The notes beneath the pieces are model-generated. The model did not search any database and was not told the DNA's origin. It was given only the letters and a program-made list of their open reading frames with translations. This document shows, one piece after another, positions 14,358-21,465 of a DNA stretch of 64,000 nt. Numbering within the stretch: position 1 is the first letter of the stretch; each line of letters begins with the position of its first letter. The position numbers were made by a program, and so were the translations under genes. The stretch is from Prochlorococcus sp. AG-388-F11 (GTDB lineage: Bacteria > Cyanobacteriota > Cyanobacteriia > PCC-6307 > Cyanobiaceae), in assembly GCA_003279845.1 (NCBI GenBank), contig QCGP01000006.1, positions 1-64,000 of the forward strand, written 5' to 3'.

Positions 14358-15587
14358 TTGAAATACATCACTGTTCTAGGTTCTACTGGTTCAATTGGGA
14401 CTCAAACTCTCGAAATAGCTAGTGAGCAGCCTGATAAGTTTAAAGCCGTAGCTCTTTCGGCAGGAAGAAATATTAATTTATTAACCGAACAAGTTAAAAC
14501 ACATAAACCAGAAGTAGTTGCGATTGAGGATGAAAATCTCATAGAAGATTTAAAAGATAATATTAATAACTTAGATTTGGATAGTGCTCCCTTGGTTTTG
14601 AGTGGAAAGGAGGGGATTAACGCAGTTGCAGCATGGGGTAATGCAGATATTGTGGTTACAGGGATAGTAGGATGTGCAGGCTTAATTCCAACAATGTCAG
14701 CAATTAATGCGGGGAAAAATATTGCACTTGCTAACAAAGAAACTTTAATTGCGGCAGGACCAATTGTTATTCCTGCATTAAAGAAAAATAATAGTAGGCT
14801 TTTACCTGCTGATTCAGAACACTCTGCTATCTTTCAATGTTTACAAGGATTACCTAATTATGAAAATGCAGATTTTTCAACAGGAGAGATCCCTAAAGGT
14901 TTAAAAGCTATACACTTGACAGCTTCAGGTGGTGCTTTCAGAGATTGGGCCGTTGAGGATTTAAAGCATGTCACAGTGGAAGATGCAACTTCACATCCTA
15001 ATTGGGATATGGGAAAAAAAATAACTGTAGATTCTGCAACTCTTATGAATAAAGGATTAGAAGTTATAGAAGCTCATTATTTATTTGGGACCTCTTACGA
15101 AAATATCGAAATAGTTATCCACCCTCAAAGTATTATTCATTCAATGATCGAGATGGAAGATTCTTCAGTATTAGCTCAATTAGGTTGGCCAGATATGAAA
15201 CTACCTATTTTATATGCGATGAGCTGGCCTGAAAGATTTAAAACAAATTGGAAAAGATTAAACCTAAGTGAAATTGGAAAATTAACTTTTAATGAGCCCG
15301 ACGAGTTTAAATATCCATGCATGGGACTTGCCTATGCCGCAGGAAAATCTTCTGGGACTATGCCTGCAGTCTTAAATGCTGCTAATGAAATGGCTGTTGA
15401 ACAATTCCTTAAAGAAAAAATTTCTTTTCAAGAAATTCCAACATTTATAAGTAAAGCTTGTGAATCACATATGGAGAATTTGAATTTGAGTCCCGAATTG
15501 GAGGATATTCTTGAAGTAGACAAGTGGGCCAGACTTTTTGTTGAGCAAGAAATTAAAAAAGGGAAAAAATACGTAAGTATTGGTTAA
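14358..15587 (+). CDS. dxr: 1-deoxy-D-xylulose 5-phosphate reductoisomerase
   Basis: [41 protein letters not shown] start. Confidence 0.97.
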
Positions 15588-15666: not shown

Positions 15667-16353
15667 TTATGCCACCCTGAATTCTCGTTTCATATTCATT
15701 TCGGGCAAGTCATTCATTGAATCTCTCCATTCCTGAGCCCACTCACTTTGACTATGTCTATAAATTCTAATTAGTTCATCTACAGAAGAATCATGATAAT
15801 CAACTCTAAGGTCTAAAAGGGGAAAGCCTAGTTCTCCGCTTACCTTTAGGGCGCTTGAGGTTGAACGGGGGCTTCGTCTATCTCCACCTATATTTTCTCC
15901 TGCATTAAGAGCATCAAGTAGTCTTTTCCCTAATTTAATATTTGGATCACTTTTTTTAAAAACATCAGCCATCACCTCAAGGACTTCAATATTCTCTAGA
16001 AAATTGCCAGCTACAGAAAAGTTTTGTCCACTTATATGTCCGCTTGTCTGAAAACATTCTTGACCTGTCCAGCATGCGCTTCTCCCATACTTATCAATTA
16101 AGTGAACCTGTCTTTTTTCTCGGCCAAAATCTTCTTTAATTAAATCTTCCAAAACAATTTTTGAATCAGAACAGGATTGGAGTGACTCAAGACTTCTTAA
16201 TCCTAAATACGGATTAGTTTGCCCTTGAGTTGCAACAGCACCAACCTGTGATCTAACGAATGAAACTGTTGAGCCAACAGCTATATGACAAGAAGAAACT
16301 GCAACACCAAATCTATTTTTTAAAGGATCAAAACCAATAATTGAAAATGTCAT
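15667..16353 (-). CDS. DUF1028 family protein
   Basis: TFSIIGFDPLKNRFGVAVSSCHIAVGS...GAVATQGQTNPYLG...GGDRRSPRSTSSALKV...DLRVDYH. Confidence 0.88.
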   Translation of the reverse strand: MTFSIIGFDPLKNRFGVAVSSCHIAVGSTVSFVRSQVGAVATQGQTNPYLGLRSLESLQSCSDSKIVLEDLIKEDFGREKRQVHLIDKYGRSACWTGQECFQTSGHISGQNFSVAGNFLENIEVLEVMADVFKKSDPNIKLGKRLLDALNAGENIGGDRRSPRSTSSALKVSGELGFPLLDLRVDYHDSSVDELIRIYRHSQSEWAQEWRDSMNDLPEMNMKREFRVA

Positions 16354-17631
16354 TTATATCATTAGAGGCTTGTCTAAAAAATTCTTATCAATGGAAAATA
16401 TTGTATTTAATAAAACCTCAATACCATTAGCACATTGATCAAGAGAAGTATATTCCTTATAGGAATGACTCAGACCATTCCTGCTTGGGACAAAGATCAT
16501 AACCATAGGACAGATCCTTCCTATTTCTTGTGAGTCATGACTTGCTTTGCTTGGTAAGATTCCAGTTTTAAATCCCAACTTTTCAGATTCATGAAATGAA
16601 GAGCTCACTAATTTAGGGCATGACTTAGTGGGAATCACTTCAAATTGAGGTTCTATCTGTACTACGCATCCAGTAACTTCTTGAATTTCTGAGCATAGAT
16701 TCTCAATTCTTAAACTCATTTTCCCAATTACATCTTCATCCAAATCTCTCATATCTATAGTGAATACTACCTCTCCTGGAATAACATTTGCCGCATTTGG
16801 ATGTAATTTCAATTTACCAACTGTTGCGACTGCACTTTCAGAAGTAGTTTTAGCAATCTGTTCAATGCCAACAATAATTTTAGAGGCGGCCAAAAGTGCA
16901 TCATTTCTATTTGACATCGGTGTAGTTCCTGCATGATTTGCCTGGCCTGTAACTTTAACGGTTATTCTTTTTTGACCTACTATTCCATTAACAATTCCGA
17001 TATCCAAACCACCATCTTCTAGAACCTTTCCCTGTTCAACATGTAATTCAAGAAAAGCGAATATATCTTTTTTACTTCTTGCCGCACTTTTAATCTCAAG
17101 CCAATTTCCACCAATCCGAGAAAGATTATCAATTATTGAACAAAAATTACTGGTAATAAAATCTTCTTCGTTTACAGATAAATTGCCTGTAAAGCCTTTA
17201 CAACCAATCATTGTCGATTCTTCATCAGCAAAGACAATTATTTCAAATGGTCTATTTAATTTAATGTCATTTTCCTGAAGGAAAAAAGCAATTTCAATTC
17301 CTGCAATTACTCCTAAAGTTCCATCGTACTTACCTCCCTTTGGAACAGTGTCGAGATGAGATCCAGTAACAATAGGAGGTAAATTATTATCATGACCATC
17401 TAATCTTGCAATAATATTTCCTGCAGTATCTATTCTTATTTTTAAACCTAAGTCCTTAAGGGTTTTCATACAAAAATTTCTTGCATATATATCTTCATCA
17501 GAAAAACCTCTTCTTGAAACAGAACCATTCTCAGAAGCTCCGATTGAAGAAAAAGAATTTATCAATTCCTGGATTCTATCCCTATTTATTACCTGTGGCT
17601 CTAGGATATTCAATCCAGCACTATAGCTCAT
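16354..17631 (-). CDS. M20-family N-carbamoyl-L-amino acid hydrolase / allantoate amidohydrolase-like
   Basis: GSHLDTVPKGGKYDGTLGV, FADEEST, LELHVEQG, ANHAGTTPMSNRND, NAANVIPGEVVFTIDMRD, SHDSQEIG. Confidence 0.92.
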   Translation of the reverse strand: MSYSAGLNILEPQVINRDRIQELINSFSSIGASENGSVSRRGFSDEDIYARNFCMKTLKDLGLKIRIDTAGNIIARLDGHDNNLPPIVTGSHLDTVPKGGKYDGTLGVIAGIEIAFFLQENDIKLNRPFEIIVFADEESTMIGCKGFTGNLSVNEEDFITSNFCSIIDNLSRIGGNWLEIKSAARSKKDIFAFLELHVEQGKVLEDGGLDIGIVNGIVGQKRITVKVTGQANHAGTTPMSNRNDALLAASKIIVGIEQIAKTTSESAVATVGKLKLHPNAANVIPGEVVFTIDMRDLDEDVIGKMSLRIENLCSEIQEVTGCVVQIEPQFEVIPTKSCPKLVSSSFHESEKLGFKTGILPSKASHDSQEIGRICPMVMIFVPSRNGLSHSYKEYTSLDQCANGIEVLLNTIFSIDKNFLDKPLMI

Positions 17632-17723
17632 ACTTCTATTACTTAATCGTATTTAAGGTCTCTTATTTTTCAAATAAAACCTGTATTGGTTTACACCTTT
17701 TCAGAAATTAATTTAGGGACGAA

Positions 17724-19736
17724 TTAAACTTTCCAACCCAAATTATCAGCCATCTTTTGAGCCTTATCTGGGATATCATCAATTATAAAAATCTTATATA
17801 AGATCTGAACGCTTAAAAGATGATTGATTATTGCATCCAATTGTACTTTTTTTGAGGCATCAAGCCCTGAGCTAAAAAATTTATTCAGCAAATTATTTAC
17901 TTCTGTTTCATCCAAGATTCCAAATTCTCTTATCCTCTCAGGACTTAAAAATTCATTCATAATTTCCTGCATAGAACTTAAATTATTTTTATCTGCATGA
18001 GAAGGGGGAGCCATGAAAGGAAATTTTTCACGTTTATACAATGTTTCAGGCAGCAAACCTGACATAGCTTCTCTTAAAACATACTTCTCGATATTGTCTT
18101 TAATCCTAAATTCAGGGGGGACAGCAACAGCAGCTTCAGCTAGATGATGATCTAAAAATGCAGGTCTGGCTTCCATTGAATTTGCCATATCCACTCTATC
18201 TCCACCCCATGTGAGTATTTGGCCCTCAAGCATAGTCTTCATCCAAACGTACTGAGCCTGATCAATTGCGTATCTATCTTCTAACTGTTCAAGATCAAGT
18301 TCTCCAAAAATTGCTGCCCCGGGATCATAATTTTCCGTTATCTCTTTATATTTACTTGAGACTAGACTTTTTGCATAAGTTTCACATGCAAGCCAAGGTT
18401 GCAGGCAACTTGGCGTAAATCCTAAAAATTCATTGAAAGATTGATTACTTATCTCTTCATTAGCAAGCATCGCGCCCTTAAAAATATCATTTGAATTTTC
18501 TAGTTTTTCTTTAAGATTCTCAGATTCTGAATTAGAAATTCCGACCCCATAGGTATACATATCTTTTCTAAAAGCAGGATAGCCACCAAACAATTCATCT
18601 GAACCCTCTCCTGTCATAACGACCTTATAATCGAGCTCATTCACTCTTTTACTCATAAGGTATTTTGCAATTGCAAGGGTGTTATAAATAGATCTTTCAG
18701 TAAACCATAGAACCTTTTCAAAATTCCCATACAGATCATCTCCATTTATTTTTAAAATTTCATGATCTGCATTTGTGGCGAGAGCCATCTCTTTTGCTAT
18801 CGAAGTTTCATCATATCTTTCATCACTGAAACCAATCGTAAATGCCTTTACTGATTTTTGACTTATGGCAGAAGCCAATCCCAAAATTGAGCAACTATCA
18901 ATTCCACCGGACAAATAACAGCCGACCGGAACGTCAGCGACCATTCTTAATTCAACTGCTCTCAACAATTCTTTCCTAATATTTTCAATAAAGTATTTTT
19001 CACTTTTATCTCTTTCATAAGTGTTTTTCTTTGGGAAATTTATATCCCAGAATTTTTCCTCTGTTATCTGAAATTTATTATTTACTCTTTTGACTTTAAG
19101 GATATATCCGGGCTTAACTTGTTTAACACCGGCGAATGCTGTAGAGCCAGGGACCATGACCTGCATCAGTTGATGAACCAGTCCTTCACCCGTAAATTTT
19201 CTTTCAACTGATGGATGGGCAAATAATACTTTTAATTCAGAGCCGAATATTAAGGAATCATCGGTCTCAATCCAGTATTGAGGTTTAATCCCAAATCGGT
19301 CTCTTACAAGATAAAGACAATCCTGTTCTGCATCAAACAATGAAAAGGCAAATTCTCCTCGCAGATAAGATAATGATTCATCAATGCCATATTTCTCATA
19401 AAGTCTAAGCAATATTTCCGAATCACTTTTTGAAGAGAAGCTTACGCCCTGGGCAATAAGATCAGCCCTGATTCTTTGAAAGTCATAAAATTCACCGTTA
19501 TGTGCCATAAGAATATGATTTTCGGCACCTCCGACAAAAGGCTGTCTGGCTCGATTTTCATTTAAATCTATTATTGATAATCTCGCATGACAGAATCCTG
19601 CAGAAGCATCTTCTGATAATTTATATCCAAAACCGTCCGGTCCACGATGGCTTTGAATAGCCGCCATATTTACAAGAATCTGAGGCTCAACAGATTTATC
19701 TTTTGATTTATTAAAAACCCCGCCTATTCCACACAT
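17724..19736 (-). CDS. asparagine synthase (glutamine-hydrolysing)-family protein
   Basis: MCGIGGVF N-terminal nucleophile, SHRGPDGFG, PP-loop VGCYLSGGIDSCSILGLA, TGEGSDELFGGY. Confidence 0.93.
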   Translation of the reverse strand: MCGIGGVFNKSKDKSVEPQILVNMAAIQSHRGPDGFGYKLSEDASAGFCHARLSIIDLNENRARQPFVGGAENHILMAHNGEFYDFQRIRADLIAQGVSFSSKSDSEILLRLYEKYGIDESLSYLRGEFAFSLFDAEQDCLYLVRDRFGIKPQYWIETDDSLIFGSELKVLFAHPSVERKFTGEGLVHQLMQVMVPGSTAFAGVKQVKPGYILKVKRVNNKFQITEEKFWDINFPKKNTYERDKSEKYFIENIRKELLRAVELRMVADVPVGCYLSGGIDSCSILGLASAISQKSVKAFTIGFSDERYDETSIAKEMALATNADHEILKINGDDLYGNFEKVLWFTERSIYNTLAIAKYLMSKRVNELDYKVVMTGEGSDELFGGYPAFRKDMYTYGVGISNSESENLKEKLENSNDIFKGAMLANEEISNQSFNEFLGFTPSCLQPWLACETYAKSLVSSKYKEITENYDPGAAIFGELDLEQLEDRYAIDQAQYVWMKTMLEGQILTWGGDRVDMANSMEARPAFLDHHLAEAAVAVPPEFRIKDNIEKYVLREAMSGLLPETLYKREKFPFMAPPSHADKNNLSSMQEIMNEFLSPERIREFGILDETEVNNLLNKFFSSGLDASKKVQLDAIINHLLSVQILYKIFIIDDIPDKAQKMADNLGWKV

Positions 19737-19740
19737 CTAG

Positions 19741-20853
19741 TTAAACAACATCCATTACTCTTGTAGTTCTATCCATCAGACAGGTAAGCAATGCCATCCT
19801 TACAAATACTGCTCCTCTTGACTGAGCAAAATACCAATTTTTTGAGGTCTGATCCAGTGATGTTGATAATTCAGGACCACGAGCAAGTGGATGCAATATT
19901 ATGGAATCTTTTTTAAATGGCAACTCACTGTGCAATTTAAATGCACTTCCATGAACCTCATAATTATCTCCAACCCATGCAATTGCATTTATATAGGTAA
20001 CGTCTAGGGAAGGCAACACTTTTTGAATATCCGTCTCCAGCTCAACCTTTAGATCAGATTCAATAAGTTGTTCCAGCTGTCCTTCATCAAATAGATCGTT
20101 CTGATCAATAAATTTTTCATCATAAATTACAATAATTTTTTTTATGAAATATGGAAACTTACAGAATAATTTCAGAAGAGATCTGACTGTTCTCATTCGT
20201 GATGGAACTCCGATGATACCAATGGTTATTTTTTCACTATCATCAGTTGATTTGTTAACAAGATGAGGTCTCCATTTAAAAATCGTATAAAGATCAGACA
20301 TCGCCTGAGTGGGATGTTCATCGATTCCATTACCAGCATTTATTATGGGAATTCTCAATGATTTTGTCATTTCAAAGATCGCCTCATTGTCACTTTCTCT
20401 GAGGACAACGCAGTCACCGTAATTATTAAACATATGAGCAATATCCAAATGGGTTTCTCCTTTGGCAATTCCAGTGGAACTTTTATCGGTGATATTTATT
20501 GAATCGCCACCTAGCCTGTGCCATGCGCTGTCAAACGATAATCTTGTTCTGGTGCTTGGTTCATAGAAGGCATTTATAAGTATCTTTCCCTTGAGGGGAC
20601 TGTTATGGGAAATATATCTGTTTGGGTTACTTTCGAATTTTGCCGCCAGCCTGAAAAGTTGTAGAAGACAATCTTTACTGAAGGGGTCTATAGAAATTAC
20701 ATGCCTGTCCAATAACTCATATAGAAATTCCGCTCTTTCCTTTATTTCAGATAATAAATTCTGAGGATGAGTGGAGCCGTAAATATCAGGTCCGATTCTT
20801 GAAAAAGAAAATGATTTTTCCTTATGTAAGTTTTTTACTTTATACGATCCCAA
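19741..20853 (-). CDS. aspartate/ornithine carbamoyltransferase-family protein (ATCase-like paralogue)
   Basis: Carbamoyl-phosphate loop FYEPSTRTRLSFDSAWHRLGG, HPTQAMSDLYTI, HPLARGPELS. Confidence 0.9.
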   Translation of the reverse strand: MGSYKVKNLHKEKSFSFSRIGPDIYGSTHPQNLLSEIKERAEFLYELLDRHVISIDPFSKDCLLQLFRLAAKFESNPNRYISHNSPLKGKILINAFYEPSTRTRLSFDSAWHRLGGDSINITDKSSTGIAKGETHLDIAHMFNNYGDCVVLRESDNEAIFEMTKSLRIPIINAGNGIDEHPTQAMSDLYTIFKWRPHLVNKSTDDSEKITIGIIGVPSRMRTVRSLLKLFCKFPYFIKKIIVIYDEKFIDQNDLFDEGQLEQLIESDLKVELETDIQKVLPSLDVTYINAIAWVGDNYEVHGSAFKLHSELPFKKDSIILHPLARGPELSTSLDQTSKNWYFAQSRGAVFVRMALLTCLMDRTTRVMDVV

Positions 20854-20987: not shown

Positions 20988-21114
20988 ATATTTAATTCAG
21001 CTCAGAATTTAACAGCAATACTGGTTCATTAACCCTCTCAAATAGGAGTTTTAACGGGTACTTGTTTCATGCCCTAGAATCGGCTTAATGGTAGTATGGC
21101 GCAGGGATTTAAAA

Positions 21115-21465
21115 ATGACAAAATGGGTAAATAAACACCTTCTACTATGCGCAACACCCACAAAACAGAAATGCTTTAAAGGCAATGAAGGTCAAAAAAC
21201 GTGGGAATGTCTGAAAAAGACTTTAAAAAAATTTGAGAATGATCCCTCTACAAAAAACGTTCATATATTAAGATCAAAAGCTGACTGTTTAAGGATATGT
21301 AAGAATGGCCCAATTCTTCTTGTTTGGCCTGATGGTATTTGGTACGAGAAAGTTTCTCAAGAAAAAATATCAGAAATTTTTACCTCACATATTATTAACG
21401 GTAAGCCAATTGAAAAATGGATTTTTAAAAAAACACCATTTTTAAATAGTCCTAGATACTCATAA
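21115..21465 (+). CDS. thioredoxin-like [2Fe-2S] ferredoxin-type protein
   Basis: LLLCATPTKQKCF...SKADCLRICKNGPILLVWPDGIWY four-Cys pattern; ATG 21115 preferred over 21088. Confidence 0.8.
   Translation: MTKWVNKHLLLCATPTKQKCFKGNEGQKTWECLKKTLKKFENDPSTKNVHILRSKADCLRICKNGPILLVWPDGIWYEKVSQEKISEIFTSHIINGKPIEKWIFKKTPFLNSPRYS

Follow-up and report, generated by a model that had tools for sequence, protein, structure and literature searches.

The N-acetylglutaminylglutamine amide (NAGGN) system yields an uncharged amino-acid osmolyte through an AsnB-type amidotransferase that masks the carboxylate as an amide and an acetyltransferase that masks the amino group, and it includes a metal-dependent hydrolase. 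N-Carbamoyl-glutamine amide (CGA) is, to our knowledge, the only described osmolyte in which an amino acid bears both an N-carbamoyl group and an amide at C1. Citing Galinski and Oren 1991, two papers give Ectothiorhodospira marismortui as its sole reported source (PMC1224877, PMC3857566), where it is a minor solute (PMC3857566). Since 1991 the compound has remained an orphan, with a structure but no genes and one listed organism: among open-licence papers, preprints not included, we found none that assigned genes to it, and a survey of phototroph genomes for osmolyte genes names CGA and, in the passages covered, assigns no genes (PMC7824335). Here we describe four adjacent genes of Prochlorococcus that are, with a probability of roughly 0.6, the first good candidates for making and recycling CGA.

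The four-gene cassette and its host genome

The window, that is, the whole stretch of 64,000 nucleotides that was analysed, comes from a Prochlorococcus genome of 1.5 Mb in 37 contigs (86.6% complete). Four complete, intact minus-strand genes occupy its positions 15667-20853:

14358-15587, plus strand: dxr, flanking gene
15667-16353, minus strand: DUF1028 protein, 228 aa (PF06267)
16354-17631, minus strand: M20 amidohydrolase of the hydantoinase/carbamoylase family, 425 aa (above the NF006771 and TIGR01879 cut-offs)
17632-17723, minus strand: 92-nt gap between the TCase-AsnB (synthesis) pair and the M20-DUF1028 (breakdown) pair
17724-19736, minus strand: AsnB-like glutamine-dependent amidotransferase, 670 aa
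19741-20853, minus strand: transcarbamylase of the ATCase/OTCase fold (TCase), 370 aa, with a TTG start and hence an uncertain N-terminus
21088-21465, plus strand: [2Fe-2S] protein gene, other flank

The layout described in a sequence-only reading of this DNA proved exact, with 4 nt between the TCase and AsnB genes, the 92-nt gap, abutting M20 and DUF1028 genes, and flanking genes on the opposite strand. Its four family labels were supported by Pfam and NCBIfam, and the motifs it had named were found as well: the AsnB keeps Cys2 and the PP-loop (SGGIDS at 276), and the M20 keeps its metal-ligand motifs (GSHLDT, YDG, DEES, ELHVEQG and SHSYKE). TGEGSDELFGGY is likewise kept in the AsnB.

Going by the family labels, pyrB and asnB, the TCase and the AsnB could be housekeeping enzymes of pyrimidine and asparagine metabolism that are adjacent by accident, which we regard as barely conceivable. 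The same genome carries a separate pyrB with the RLQKER motif kept, an argF, and a second asnB-like gene adjoining glycosyltransferase-like genes. Housekeeping is thus covered by other genes than the cassette pair, and the refutation that the sequence-only reading had set out does not apply. Moreover, the TCase falls short of the PyrB equivalog cut-off (TIGR00670, 187.4 vs 236.95 bits), and the co-occurrence of the genes is conserved across phyla.

Distribution and gene neighborhoods

Among Prochlorococcus genomes, DUF1028 was present in 35 of 266, or 13 of the 87 good ones. The full cassette was found in the same order and at 95-99% identity in 19 of 20 loci with wide flanks, the remaining locus being interrupted by a contig end. 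As it lies beside dxr in 11 of the 20 and elsewhere in 9, the cassette is a flexible, movable unit. Within the family (Cyanobiaceae), 55 of 300 sampled genomes, from 10 of 59 genera, contained the TCase, and all four genes occurred together in 25 of 25 loci from the other genera (Synechococcus/Cyanobium-type; TCase identity 59-69%). Hence, with the same four genes recurring in 20 and 25 loci, the cassette is not a chance assembly. In five of the 25 loci, which form one clade, a divergent DUF1028 (about 40% identity) is inverted between AsnB and M20, and that the same families keep together in another arrangement speaks for a functional link. A gene for a sodium:solute symporter (SSS) lies upstream of the TCase gene in 24 of the 25 loci, whereas the Prochlorococcus copies are without it.

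Several further observations were made on the cyanobacterial loci. The inverted-DUF1028 clade has carB, the gene for the large subunit of carbamoyl-phosphate synthase, within a few kb of the cassette, which could reflect carbamoyl-phosphate supply or coincidence, and a GMC-type oxidoreductase gene on the cassette's other side (L087, L090, L092, L093, L099). One Synechococcus-type genome (G438) holds two complete, divergent cassettes (C1 1682796-1683869 and 2535827-2536894; L080, L081), and the freshwater Cyanobium sp. ATX 6A2 (L122), singled out in a survey for its salt-adaptation genes (PMC9361551), also carries one. Two contigs, one labeled as a Trichodesmium MAG (L167; cassette about 97% identical to Prochlorococcus) and one as a gammaproteobacterial MAG (L136; about 85% identical to Synechococcus), are probably mis-binned picocyanobacterial DNA. 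In several Synechococcus-type genomes (L081, L086, L088, L089, L100, L101), the urease genes ureD and ureC are found within a few kb of the cassette; being limited to some Synechococcus loci and absent elsewhere, this link was dropped as a main clue. We likewise rejected a broad cyanobacterial trait (TCase in 17 of 386 sampled genomes of the phylum, all within one family), phage or plasmid cargo (no TCase relative in viral contigs, and ordinary PyrB-level matches of about 31% from phages and plasmids) and tRNA-linked integration (tRNA genes near 3 of 12 scanned loci, with no site rule).

A scan of 84,980 genomes gave 197 TCase relatives, and the non-cyanobacterial carriers among the best 80 of the 197 were marine and halophilic bacteria: Kangiella, Aliikangiella, Pleionea, Idiomarina, Pseudidiomarina, Aliidiomarina, Ketobacter, Pseudomaricurvus, Pseudoalteromonas and Kordiimonas. 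Marine and halophilic Gammaproteobacteria, as well as the Ectothiorhodospiraceae-type family described below, share the TCase-AsnB pair at 55-69% identity. All 40 proteobacterial loci examined have the order symporter–TCase–AsnB, a distant M20 (32-37% identity to the cyanobacterial one) lies near half of them, and DUF1028 was not found in any of the 13 proteobacterial carrier genomes searched, which excludes it as an obligate core member. Because of this constancy on the one side and variability on the other, the core consists of TCase, AsnB and symporter, with the hydrolases as an exchangeable second half. Before the symporter, 38 of the 40 loci encode a small secreted protein with a C-terminal membrane anchor and no Pfam match (e.g., L132:7889-8425), possibly an accessory subunit of the SSS symporter.

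As CGA is known only from E. marismortui, we searched phototrophic Gammaproteobacteria. Reaction-center genes were present in 6 of 369 genomes of the class, and two of the six had the TCase (E about 1e-163); in the family of one of these phototrophs, 41 of 47 genomes carried it, including 11 of 11 phototrophs. This family fits Ectothiorhodospiraceae, which use glycine betaine, not ectoine, and have Thioalkalivibrio as closest chemotrophs (PMC8877833); ectoine synthase was absent from all 11 phototrophs. In 21 of 22 loci, the genes form an operon, M20–isochorismatase-type amidase–(symporter)–TCase–AsnB, headed by MarR in 19 of 22 and followed past AsnB by MscS in 8 (plus two fragments). One carrier of the operon, G1206 (2.6 Mb, 67-69% G+C), is 93.5% identical over 18 kb to a second genome, G1257 (2.8 Mb, 68%); E. 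marismortui DSM 4180 has 2.62 Mb and 68.2% G+C, E. mobilis DSM 237 has 2.80 Mb and 68.3%, and their ANI is 92.6 (PMC8877833). Judging from size, G+C and pairwise identity, G1206 would thus be E. marismortui or nearly so. Another phototroph of the family (G1296) has a TCase (L262:9408-10493) with no AsnB, M20 or amidase within about 9 kb, either an orphan or decaying copy or one whose AsnB lies elsewhere.

The cassette is linked to osmolyte and osmotic-shock genes, as would be expected of a compatible-solute cluster. Beside the Ectothiorhodospiraceae-type operon, a sucrose synthase gene lies in 14 of 22 loci and a fructokinase-like gene is also among the neighbors; at one locus (L228), the sucrose synthase scores 1174.7 bits against the TIGR02470 cut-off of 810.4, and the MscS domains exceed their Pfam cut-offs. 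In two genomes of one Synechococcus-type genus (L098, L084), the cassette directly follows two methyltransferase genes on the same strand, a glycine/sarcosine N-methyltransferase (428 bits, cut-off 350) and a sarcosine/dimethylglycine-type enzyme (314 bits, under its cut-off of 550), beyond which the opposite strand carries ProV and OpuAC genes for glycine-betaine transport. The sucrose-synthase/MscS and glycine-betaine settings are independent contexts in two phyla. The same enzymes might instead make a nitrogen-storage or signalling compound, a soluble counterpart of cyanophycin, given the four nitrogens of CGA-type products, the placement of breakdown with synthesis genes and the urease genes adjoining some clusters. 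With sucrose synthase, MscS and glycine-betaine genes as neighbors and a distribution biased to halophiles, however, we consider such a compound very unlikely and an osmolyte the better reading.

Enzyme features and the proposed pathway

In the ATCase active site, Arg229 and Gln231 (E. coli numbering), which form the RxQ motif, bind aspartate. The TCase keeps the carbamoyl-phosphate site (STRTR at 100, AKGE at 130, HPTQAM at 180, and Lys84) and R221/R224 within MRTVRSL, and MRTVRS, with the equivalent of ATCase Arg167, is retained in 145 of 146 TCase sequences. The RxQ motif, by contrast, is replaced in all of them by A-I-A or similar, with NAIAW in 121 (NAIAWV at 289 in the window TCase) and variants in the rest. 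Because the former sites are kept and the latter is replaced, the TCase substrate appears to fit an alpha-amino acid with a non-acidic side chain. The AsnB exceeds the asparagine synthetase cut-off (TIGR01536, 434.7 vs 267.1 bits), but at the position of Arg325 in E. coli AsnB, a residue linked to aspartate binding (PMC12018205), 135 of 136 AsnB sequences have Ala or Gly (NTLAIA, NTLAVA, NTLGVA; Ala in the window AsnB). With both the RxQ and the Arg325 positions replaced, both enzymes have moved away from aspartate.

The TCase model (mean pLDDT 85) has the ATCase fold. The TCase tree resolves an Ectothiorhodospiraceae-type group (support 100/100) and a cyanobacterial group (100/99), and the remaining proteobacteria form a third group without support as one clade, a pattern in keeping with old gene transfers among salt-adapted lineages, each of which then passed the gene on by descent. 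The cyanobacterial product might differ within the same pathway and role, being another N-carbamoyl amino-acid amide, for example of asparagine, or a diamide formed by AsnB from glutamate or aspartate. Sequence gives no substrate specificity of its own, and the cyanobacterial TCases are a clade apart from those of purple bacteria, which share 55-59% identity with the window TCase. But cyanobacterial, gammaproteobacterial and Ectothiorhodospiraceae-type TCases have the acceptor-site motifs MRTVRS, NAIAW and HPLARG in common, and we therefore hold a different amide to be unlikely, if worth keeping in mind, and retain CGA as the candidate product.

Both hydrolases would serve the breakdown of such a compound. 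The M20 is a full-length match to the hydantoinase/N-carbamoyl amino-acid hydrolase family above the TIGR01879 (380.1 vs 204 bits) and NF006771 cut-offs, whereas it does not reach the equivalog cut-offs for ErtE, AllC and allantoate deiminase. Ntn hydrolases combine an alpha-beta-beta-alpha fold with an N-terminal nucleophile, and DUF1028 (197 bits, PF06267 cut-off 26.2), with an Ntn-like predicted fold, may be an amidase of this kind with Thr as nucleophile: its Thr2, directly behind the start Met, is invariant, and its model gives a strong match to the DUF1028 structure 2imh and a weak one to proteasome subunits (E about 4e-5, TM about 0.4). The isochorismatase-type enzyme of the purple bacteria is related to N-carbamoylsarcosine and biuret amidohydrolases. 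A carbamoyl hydrolase plus an amidase is what the breakdown of a carbamoyl amide needs.

In the proposed pathway, the TCase would carbamoylate a neutral amino acid, glutamine, at its alpha-amino group with carbamoyl phosphate as donor, and the AsnB would then amidate the alpha-carboxylate at the expense of glutamine and ATP, masking both charges. Upon breakdown, DUF1028, or in purple bacteria the isochorismatase-type amidase, would take off the amide and so undo the AsnB step, and the M20 would hydrolyse the carbamoyl group to give glutamine, ammonia and CO2. The SSS symporter of most carriers would retrieve the solute, Prochlorococcus having lost or never received it. We infer the substrate, the product (CGA), the order of steps, what each hydrolase does and what the symporter carries; the observations behind them are co-occurrence, conservation of the core pair, loss of aspartate-specific residues, osmolyte-gene neighborhoods and distribution among halophiles.

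The sequence-only reading had left a choice between an uncharacterised pathway that makes a ureido or amide metabolite and one that salvages it. The former has held up, given the conserved co-occurrence, the separate housekeeping genes and the intact motifs, while the osmolyte role, the symporter, the wider distribution and the candidate product, as we infer them, go beyond it. For salvage, M20 and DUF1028 would cleave imported ureides, the TCase running in reverse would recover carbamoyl phosphate, and the AsnB would trap ammonia, which would suit the SSS importer at most loci, the place of the M20 within the allantoate/carbamoyl amino-acid hydrolase family and the urease genes near several Synechococcus cassettes. 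We do not favor this and rate it distinctly unlikely, because the TCase and the ATP-consuming AsnB are the most conserved members, as well conserved as each other, whereas in other lineages M20 and DUF1028 give way to other enzymes, change place or are missing, as in the proteobacterial loci and carriers above. In addition, no carbamate kinase was noticed in the cassette neighborhoods, and the halophile clusters are ringed by osmolyte genes instead of nitrogen-salvage genes.

Some points also weigh against CGA as the osmolyte made by the cassette. The compound is reported from E. marismortui alone, and as a minor solute, whereas the genes span whole families; a four-nitrogen solute is costly for nitrogen-limited Prochlorococcus; the glycine-betaine adjacency concerns two genomes of a single genus; the purple-type locus L262 has a TCase with no AsnB nearby; and a 2026 transcriptome paper on salinity in Synechococcus is silent on the cassette genes in its main text. 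That picocyanobacteria, haloalkaliphilic purple bacteria and marine Gammaproteobacteria share a transferable CGA pathway with a dedicated breakdown branch and a symporter is, in our judgment, evenly balanced.

If the pathway is as proposed, the dissolved pool of the ocean, where marine picocyanobacteria are among the most abundant phototrophs, would hold CGA, a nitrogen-rich uncharged osmolyte nobody has looked for, and a nitrogen-rich osmolyte would join the solutes exchanged between marine phototrophs and heterotrophs. DUF1028 would also gain its first proposed substrate. Predicted carriers of CGA are Synechococcus, some Prochlorococcus, Kangiella, Idiomarina and probably Thioalkalivibrio-like bacteria, and with the candidate genes, two enzymes and one substrate suffice for a direct test of where CGA comes from.

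Comparison with known systems

The TCase shares with PyrB the carbamoyl-phosphate site and the fold (TM-score in Foldseek up to 0.77, normalized by query length), and differs from it in sequence (~30% identity), in the replaced aspartate ligands, in an N-terminal extension of ~45 residues and in the lack of an adjoining PyrI. With the NAGGN system, the cassette shares the design for an uncharged amino-acid osmolyte, in which an AsnB-type amidotransferase masks the carboxylate as an amide and a second enzyme the amino group, alongside a metal-dependent hydrolase. The two differ in that a transcarbamylase takes the place of the acetyltransferase, and M20 plus DUF1028 or isochorismatase that of the M42 hydrolase; membership of the cassette AsnB in the NAGGN family was rejected, as it lies below the amidotransferase cut-off (TIGR03104, 301.3 vs 570.1 bits). 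CGA has so far been known as a compound only, with no genes assigned in the literature searched, and its chemistry in E. marismortui matches what is predicted for the two synthesis enzymes, whose operon is nearly universal in that lineage.
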